Part shown: positions 1-4,196 of the stretch, piece after piece
Numbering within the stretch: the first letter of the stretch is position 1
Layout of the letters: each line of letters begins with the position of its first letter
Source of the DNA: a candidate division TA06 bacterium SM23_40
Lineage (GTDB): Bacteria; LJUI01; SM1-40
Length of the DNA stretch: 7,729 nt
Direction of reading: 5' to 3'
Assembly: GCA_001303705.1 (NCBI GenBank)
Contig: LJUI01000121.1
Location: 1 to 7,729, forward strand
The notes under the pieces: model-generated
Seen by the model: the letters and a program-made list of their open reading frames with translations, nothing else
Databases searched by the model: none
Told to the model about the DNA's origin: nothing
Made by a program: the position numbers and the translations under genes

Positions 1-679
1 CGACCGGCCCCATAAGGGGGTTTATAGGCACGGGCGTATGGTCGGGGAAGATACCGTCCAACAATGCGTGGAACGTATGGGCCTGCGTCCCCCAGTTCTT
101 CAACGTCACGTCGAACTCCAACCCCCCTCCGGGAACGACGATCGGAGACTCGTCGGGCAATACTACAGAAATGTCAGACAGGTGAGCCTCAATGGCGTTA
201 ATGATCGCTGTCTGATTGTACCCTATGGCATCATAGATGACGACGAAGTTCCGGTCCGTGAGGGTGTTCTGAGGGATGTAGCCGTGGCTATACATCCAGT
301 AGTACGTCGAAGGAGGCGGATCATGCACGACCGGATGTGTGAGATGGTGGGTTTGTGCCCAATACTGGGCGGCCTGGTAGGATTGCCGGGTCATGGCGAA
401 GGCCCACACCCCGCGATCCCTGTACGCCTCCCAGATGTTAGCCTCTAGCAGAGGAGCCTCCTCTGCACATCCCGGTCAGGTCGTGCTGAACAGATTGACG
501 AGAACGATCTTTCCTTGATAGTCATACAGGTTGTACGAGATCGTCTGCGACCCATCAAGCATGGTCCAGTTGACGGTCGTATCGCCGATGTTGTAGGCCA
601 ACGCTGGCGCAGGCCAGGTTCCGACGAGGGCAGCGACCATCAGGGCGGTCGCCGCCGCAATACAGTAACAGGTTCTCAT
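1..679 (-). CDS. Exported thioredoxin-fold (AhpC/TSA-TlpA-like) selenoprotein, UxxC active site, 3' end outside window
   Basis: Reading through TGA 476-478 as selenocysteine gives at least 226 codons, open to the window edge. Residues 1-28 form a signal peptide (basic start, hydrophobic core, cleavage after 'PAPALA'). Residues 29-67 match the start of an AhpC/TSA-TlpA thioredoxin fold: 'IGDTTVNWTMLDG', then 'YQGKIVLVNLFSTT', where family members have a 'GKxVLVNFWATWC' type strand and active site. The next residues are U68-P69-G70-C71 followed by 'AEEAPLLEANIWEAYRDRGV', so Sec replaces the nucleophilic cysteine of CxxC. 'GYIPQNTLTDRNFVVIYD' at about residues 131-148 resembles the cis-proline loop and following strand. 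From about residue 175 ('VPGGGLEFDVTLKNWG') an Ig-like beta-sandwich extension begins. Likely role: thiol-disulfide or peroxide chemistry outside the cytoplasm; substrate unknown. The ATG at 677-679 has an AGGAGG site 6 nt upstream. The alternative is a nonsense-mutated pseudogene or a sequencing error, which the intact downstream frame and the hairpin argue against. Confidence 0.85.
448..466 (-). promoter_or_regulatory. Predicted bacterial SECIS hairpin of the selenoprotein mRNA
   Basis: On the minus strand the arms GCAGAGGA and UCCUCUGC form a perfect 8-bp stem closing a GGC loop (loop at 456-458). The stem begins 9 nt after the UGA and the loop 17 nt after it. Known bacterial SECIS elements, bound by the elongation factor SelB, lie just downstream of the UGA inside the coding region, with an apical loop roughly 16-37 nt away and a G among the first loop bases. 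This hairpin fits. It encodes A-E-E-A-P-L-L, so it is also part of the protein. Folding was done by eye. Confidence 0.75.
476..478 (-). other. In-frame TGA read as selenocysteine (Sec68)
   Basis: On the minus strand this TGA directly follows 'FSTT' and precedes 'PGC', so it occupies the first cysteine position of a thioredoxin-type CxxC motif. The frame downstream contains no further stop for 158 codons. The three other genes in the window contain no in-frame TGA despite many tryptophans and glycines and all end in TAG, so general recoding of TGA to Trp or Gly is not indicated. Confidence 0.85.
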
Positions 680-685
680 CTGACT

Positions 686-691
686 CCTCCT
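686..691 (-). promoter_or_regulatory. Shine-Dalgarno site of the selenoprotein gene
   Basis: AGGAGG, within AAAGGAGGAG, lies 6 nt before the ATG at 677-679. It fixes the start and puts a complete signal peptide at the N-terminus. A strong ribosome binding site argues that the short reading frame ahead of the TGA is a real gene start. Confidence 0.85.
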
Positions 692-3770: not shown

Positions 3771-4053
3771 TCTCGGACGGTACTCCGGCTCTCTCAGACG
3801 GCATCTCCGTCCCTTGGCTGGTATCTCCGTTCCCCGGATCGCGTCCAGTCCCCTGGCTGGTATCTCCGTCCCTCGGATCGTGTCCGGTCCCCTGGATGGT
3901 ATCTCCGTCCCCCGGATCGTGTCCGGTCCCTTGAATGGTGTCCCCGTCCCCGGATCGTGTCCCCGTCCCTTGGACGGCCTCTCCGAACCTTGGATCGTGT
4001 CCCCGTCCCTTGGACGGCCTCTGCGTTCCTTAGACGGTGTCTAGGTTCCCTCC
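3771..4053 (-). repeat. Degenerate tandem array of ~20-bp units between the two beta-helix genes
   Basis: About 14 imperfect units of 18-21 bp. On the minus strand the core is roughly GATCC-RRGGGACGG-RGATACC. Neighbouring units alternate between two variants, so the middle of the array has a clean 39-bp higher-order period (3820-3858, 3859-3897, 3898-3936, 3937-3975), then a 40-bp copy (3976-4015). The last units (GTCTGAGAGAG.., then GTCCGAGAGAG..) run into the ribosome binding region of the downstream gene. It is not a CRISPR array: there are no unique spacers. Role unknown. Confidence 0.85.
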
Positions 4054-4196
4054 TCTCACGTCCTTCACCTCTCGGGCCGTCCCCAGGGCGTTGTCCGCAA
4101 GGCACACCCCCGAAGTCCCTCTGTCTCGACAGCCTGATCCTTAGCCCACAGAGGGCCGGCCCCATAGCCTCGAGACGATCCATACATGGCCCCCGT

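Follow-up and report, generated by a model that had tools for sequence, protein, structure and literature searches.

The window, meaning the whole 7,729-nucleotide stretch of DNA that was analysed, is the complete contig C80 (7729 bp) of genome G000, a draft MAG of 2.88 Mb in 189 contigs that is 89.8% complete. On its minus strand (679..1) lies a frame of 226 codons that, with TGA translated as U, contains a single TGA, at 476-478 (codon 68): GKIVLVNLFSTT precedes this codon and PGCAEEAPLLEANIW follows it. The frame is still open when it reaches the contig end and, because the gene is cut there, the C-terminus of the protein is missing. A strong Shine-Dalgarno sequence (AAAGGAGGAG) stands immediately 5' of the ATG. 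The features at the locus are as follows.

686..691, minus strand: Shine-Dalgarno AGGAGG ahead of the ATG at 677-679 (from the sequence).
1..679, minus strand: partial selenoprotein coding sequence of 226 codons, with TGA68 as Sec and without its 3' end (from translation; the window is the whole of contig C80).
596..679, minus strand: putative signal peptide spanning codons 1-28, MRTCYCIAAATALMVAALVGTWPAPALA, with a likely cleavage at ALA|YN (read from the sequence; the model has a hydrophobic helix at 3-20).
317..589, minus strand: AhpC/TSA-Redoxin domain match, thioredoxin-fold, ResA/TlpA-like, residues 31-121 (Pfam PF00578 and PF08534; Foldseek 4nmu).
476..478, minus strand: TGA, selenocysteine codon 68, the N-terminal residue of UPGC (translation and homologue alignment).
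467..469, minus strand: TGT, Cys71, the resolving Cys in UxxC (no variation in the alignments).
448..466, minus strand: SECIS hairpin GCAGAGGA-GGC-UCCUCUGC, 8 bp with a 3-nt loop, 17 nt past the UGA (stem scoring, covariation and bSECIS criteria).
2..178, minus strand: start of a C-terminal module, residues 168-226 (further apparently exported proteins of this genome end in it too).

In GC content the contig (60.5%) matches 80 further stretches of this genome (60.5%, sd 1.4), and its tetranucleotide correlation, 0.879, ranks low within the range (5th percentile 0.881). The C-terminal module, of about 100 aa, is also found on five other contigs (C126, C174, C43, C76 and C173), evidence that the contig belongs to this genome. 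The genes next to the selenoprotein encode two FlgD-tailed proteins with beta-helix and Ig-repeat regions, whose function has no evident connection with it; in the interval that separates these two genes (window 3800-4060), tandem repeats of CCCTTGGCTGGTATCTCCGTC-like units, imperfect in sequence, can be seen by eye. Rfam returned no match within the window.

A sequence-only reading of this DNA had proposed that a TGA interrupts a frame otherwise open for at least 226 codons, that it sits at the first Cys of a redox CxxC, and that automatic annotation would yield a 67-residue protein. The frame is indeed of 226 codons with one TGA, the motif is UPGC with Cys or Sec in homologues at exactly this position, and translation under the standard code ends after 67 aa. 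A 67-aa product from standard gene calling, on a contig from a draft assembly, is also what would be found if the TGA were a true stop – as a pseudogene, by point mutation, or because TGC or TGT was misread in sequencing – and the downstream frame a relic. However, the frame beyond the TGA is both open and coding-like (codon usage is coding-like on each side, 0.22 upstream and 0.11 downstream), and the sequence after the TGA aligns with homologues as far as residues 160-223. The same codon is TGA in 30 other homologous stretches, a covarying hairpin constrained beyond the coding sequence lies at a fixed distance past it, and the genome contains Sec machinery. We consider a true stop very improbable.

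The homologues bear directly on selenocysteine at codon 68. A single-protein query against genome contigs gave no match in an initial scan, and a 14-row alignment was too diverse to be used as a search query; matches are present in 111 of the 386 genomes searched, and the top matches outside G000 (E 2.8e-27 and 1e-25) likewise contain TGA. Among hosts that carry names are candidate division CSSED10-310 and Krumholzibacteriota. The sequence-only reading had held that homologues with Cys or Sec at position 68 would support its case: in 59 distinct aligned homologous stretches the position is Sec (TGA) in 31, Cys in 28 and a third residue in none. No further stop occurs inside the aligned stretch of the 31 TGA members, and both Cys71 and Pro136 are invariant in two protein alignments. 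Six Sec/Cys changes are required by the tree (at least three forced by supported branches), and a Sec paralogue and a Cys paralogue of one genome (G117) group together in it. The relatives differ in their tails, which include dockerin (L093), T9SS (L065) and FlgD (L096) types. At four loci from Krumholzibacteriota and other MAGs (L091, L095, L096 and L098) a UPVC selenoprotein gene with an FlgD-type tail has a CPGC or CVGC paralogue close behind it.

Sec and Cys versions of one domain provide a clean natural comparison: a SECIS is found in the Sec versions and is mostly absent from the Cys versions. Taking the U of UGA as nt 1, the hairpin of TGA members is centred on nt 22, where the mean stem score is 14.2 for the TGA set and 3.7 for the Cys set; other centres score at most about 7. 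Compared with synonymous-codon shuffles the hairpin is significant (p<0.05) in 27 of 31 TGA members and in 1 of 28 Cys members. For the window hairpin p=0.003, which is the floor, while in the four TGA members that make up the remainder (L037, L069, L105 and L080) the hairpin is no better than the shuffles. Within the TGA set all seven stem pairs tested show changes on both sides, and the covariation score of the hairpin is 0.505, as against 0.18 when shuffled and at most 0.20 when slid. Published bSECIS criteria specify a loop of 3-9 nt with G within the first two loop positions, a stem of 4-16 bp, a spacing of 16-37 nt and an MFE of -7.5 kcal/mol or lower (PMC13188914). The window hairpin, with 8 bp, loop GGC, 17 nt spacing and -22.3 kcal/mol (55 nt folded), lies inside these limits, as do those of 28/31 TGA members compared with 5/28 Cys members (Fisher p=1e-8). 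The hairpin falls within the codons of a conserved E-[AFL]-P segment, and TGA members having E-A-P spell it GAGGCTCC. RNAalifold predicted no pairs on the SECIS alignment, probably because the stems are too variable in sequence. MFE z-scores for whole stretches separated Sec from Cys members weakly (p=0.066); the separation emerged once the hairpin was scored at a fixed position.

All four genes of the selenocysteine machinery – selA, selB, selC and selD, the set whose presence in the same genome the sequence-only reading had made a check on its proposal – were found in G000. The tRNA-Sec scores 77.7 bits and is called tRNA-SeC (tca) by ARAGORN; SelB (392 bits) and SelA (478 bits) adjoin each other on contig C5; SelD (374 bits), which has its own in-frame TGA, adjoins selC on contig C58. 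Since control genomes without Sec usage also give weak tRNA-Sec matches, the stricter threshold of E<=1e-11 was applied in comparing TGA genomes with controls. It was reached by 9 of 14 tested genomes with TGA at codon 68 and by 2 of 14 controls, namely E. coli and M. jannaschii, each of which uses Sec. Of the remaining TGA genomes three have an ARAGORN tRNA-SeC, one has only a 52.8-bit Rfam match, and in one, G198 (83% complete), the search found no tRNA-Sec. The tRNA-Sec of four genomes (L081-L084, from G325, G051, G193 and G081) scores 52.8-59.3 bits in Rfam compared with about 66-77 elsewhere, which suggests divergent forms.

If TGA had been reassigned genome-wide to a sense amino acid such as Trp or Gly, then position 68 would not be selenocysteine, and at a single site an in-frame TGA within an open frame would look alike. 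In the part of the genome that was read (1.17 Mb, about 40%), however, TGA is the commonest ordinary stop, closing 229 of 475 long frames, from which it follows that it is not reassigned genome-wide; moreover, the residue that homologues have at position 68 is Cys, never Trp or Gly. Reassignment is less probable even than a true stop, and the stop-codon counts rule it out. Together the machinery, the pattern at position 68 and the bacterial SECIS after the TGA uphold the proposal that the gene encodes a selenoprotein.

The match to Pfam AhpC-TSA (PF00578; 42.9 bits, cut-off 26) spans the TGA, and Redoxin (PF08534) is matched at 36 bits (cut-off 26.6). A thioredoxin-fold active site had been proposed; the predicted fold is thioredoxin-like, with UxxC and the conserved Pro present (Pro136), and the nearest solved structures, whether ranked by profile or by fold, are ResA and close relatives of it (Foldseek match to 4nmu ResA, E 3.9e-11). 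The AlphaFold model is good for the greater part of residues 30-170 and of poor quality from residue 187 onward, as expected because the domain is cut; in it U68 follows a core strand (58-64) and precedes the active-site helix (74-89), the usual place of CxxC. By sequence and model, then, the domain is nearest ResA. The NCBIfam ResA model (NF002854) gives 49.6 bits, far under its cut-off of 170, and the protein is for this reason named ResA-like rather than ResA. No NCBIfam model names it, all scores to named models being far under cut-off. We put the probability that this is a real Sec-containing, ResA/TlpA-like protein at roughly 94%.

What the protein does is predicted from family chemistry. 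In known Sec peroxiredoxins peroxide reduction is faster because of Sec, and this counts for a peroxiredoxin-like peroxidase rather than a thiol-disulfide oxidoreductase, as do AhpC-TSA being the best Pfam family and the presence of Bcp and AhpE structures lower in the fold list. On the other hand, ResA structures come first in both the profile and the fold rankings, the UxxC occupies the ResA/TlpA site, whereas the Sec peroxiredoxin encoded in this genome has its Sec in a TxxU site (TFVUPTE), and the putative signal peptide favours an extracytoplasmic role. A peroxidase is therefore rather unlikely, and disulfide-reductase activity is probable, carried out by a putatively exported protein whose nucleophile would be a selenolate.

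At codon 68, the hairpin 17 nt past the UGA would recruit SelB with Sec-tRNA-Sec, and this UGA would thereby be read as Sec rather than stop; the machinery and hairpin are observed, and recoding is what they predict. The signal peptide would then direct export. Sec68, as the nucleophilic first position of the CxxC in an exported ResA/TlpA-type thiol-disulfide oxidoreductase, may attack disulfides, possibly peroxides, outside the cytoplasm through its selenolate; Cys71 would resolve the selenenylsulfide, and Pro136 would be the cis-proline of the fold. The most likely activity would be disulfide reduction in exported proteins.

Export, also part of the original proposal, is predicted from the sequence: a putative signal peptide is clear by eye (MRTCYC...APALA|Y), and the C-terminal module is common to other apparently exported proteins, among them a subtilase-like protease, that end in the same way. 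The phylum-level search for this module covered G000 alone. It is perhaps a sorting or anchoring domain, and would probably localise the selenoprotein to the cell surface or envelope.

ResA itself has Cys at its active site, consists of a single domain and has a role in cytochrome c maturation. The window protein shares its fold (PDB 1st9, 4nmu), its exported location as predicted from the sequence and, as UxxC, its CxxC site, at an identity of about 20-24%, but has Sec and continues into the C-terminal module. The ResA-like WAxxUGC protein (NF041054) and the UGC-containing TlpA family are also TlpA/ResA-like selenoproteins, but their motif is UGC where that of the window protein is UxxC; NF041054 gave no match to the window protein and matches two homologues (L065 of G001 and L067 of G117) weakly, far under cut-off. 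As the sequence-only reading stated, UxxC selenoproteins are known in AhpC/TSA-type families: PF00578 UxxC/UxxU Prx-like thiol:disulfide oxidoreductases (e.g. WP_010940744.1) and PF08534 Redoxin UxxC proteins are catalogued (PMC13188914), so that the kind is known and the protein is a further example of it. The Pfam families and the Sec in first position of UxxC are alike; the window protein may differ in the C-terminal module that it has in common with apparently exported proteins of its genome, and its relatives in their dockerin, T9SS and FlgD tails. Searches of open-licence literature turned up no publication that deals with this protein or with selenoproteins exported by these phyla.

The 1.17 Mb of G000 encodes, besides the window protein, SelD, a Sec peroxiredoxin, an MvhD/FlpD-like protein, two UshA-like (PCGU) proteins and two apparently exported Omp28-like UxxC proteins; as far as its letters tell, the genome is selenoprotein-rich, with several apparently exported members. 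Downstream of selD (L150:1934, on C58) is a second apparently exported selenoprotein, Omp28-like, with LFTNYAUTGC and a SECIS-like hairpin, which scores far under the NCBIfam Omp28_seleno cut-off. Another Omp28-like apparently exported selenoprotein (L143:4364, on C38; UASC) has an FlgD/T9SS-type tail. The UshA-like PCGU genes (L119:4352 and L119:503, on C13) adjoin each other, the former fused to a cytochrome c554-type domain. A possible lipoprotein-like frame (L111:2408, on C4) has a TGA directly past a lipobox-like region (CRLGVUGKT) and a 9-bp SECIS-like hairpin; it belongs to no known family, its start codon is ambiguous, and it may be a novel selenoprotein or else a false positive.

The window protein adds to an already catalogued kind of selenoprotein and comes from a barely sampled bacterial lineage. 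Two things are noteworthy: in candidate phyla, multi-domain, apparently exported relatives whose tails are of the dockerin, T9SS or FlgD type; and a genome rich in selenoproteins. It is conceivable, and we offer this tentatively, that several uncultivated lineages (that of G000, CSSED10-310, Krumholzibacteriota and others) run an unrecognised extracellular or cell-surface selenium redox system, in which a large number of exported Sec oxidoreductases with more than one domain (Omp28-like UxxC proteins as well as UxxC redoxins that end in dockerin, T9SS or FlgD tails) would act on surface proteins. Since standard annotation cuts such genes at the TGA, counts of exported selenoproteins in candidate phyla are probably too low. 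The finding raises a testable question: why cells would send selenocysteine outside the cytoplasm.
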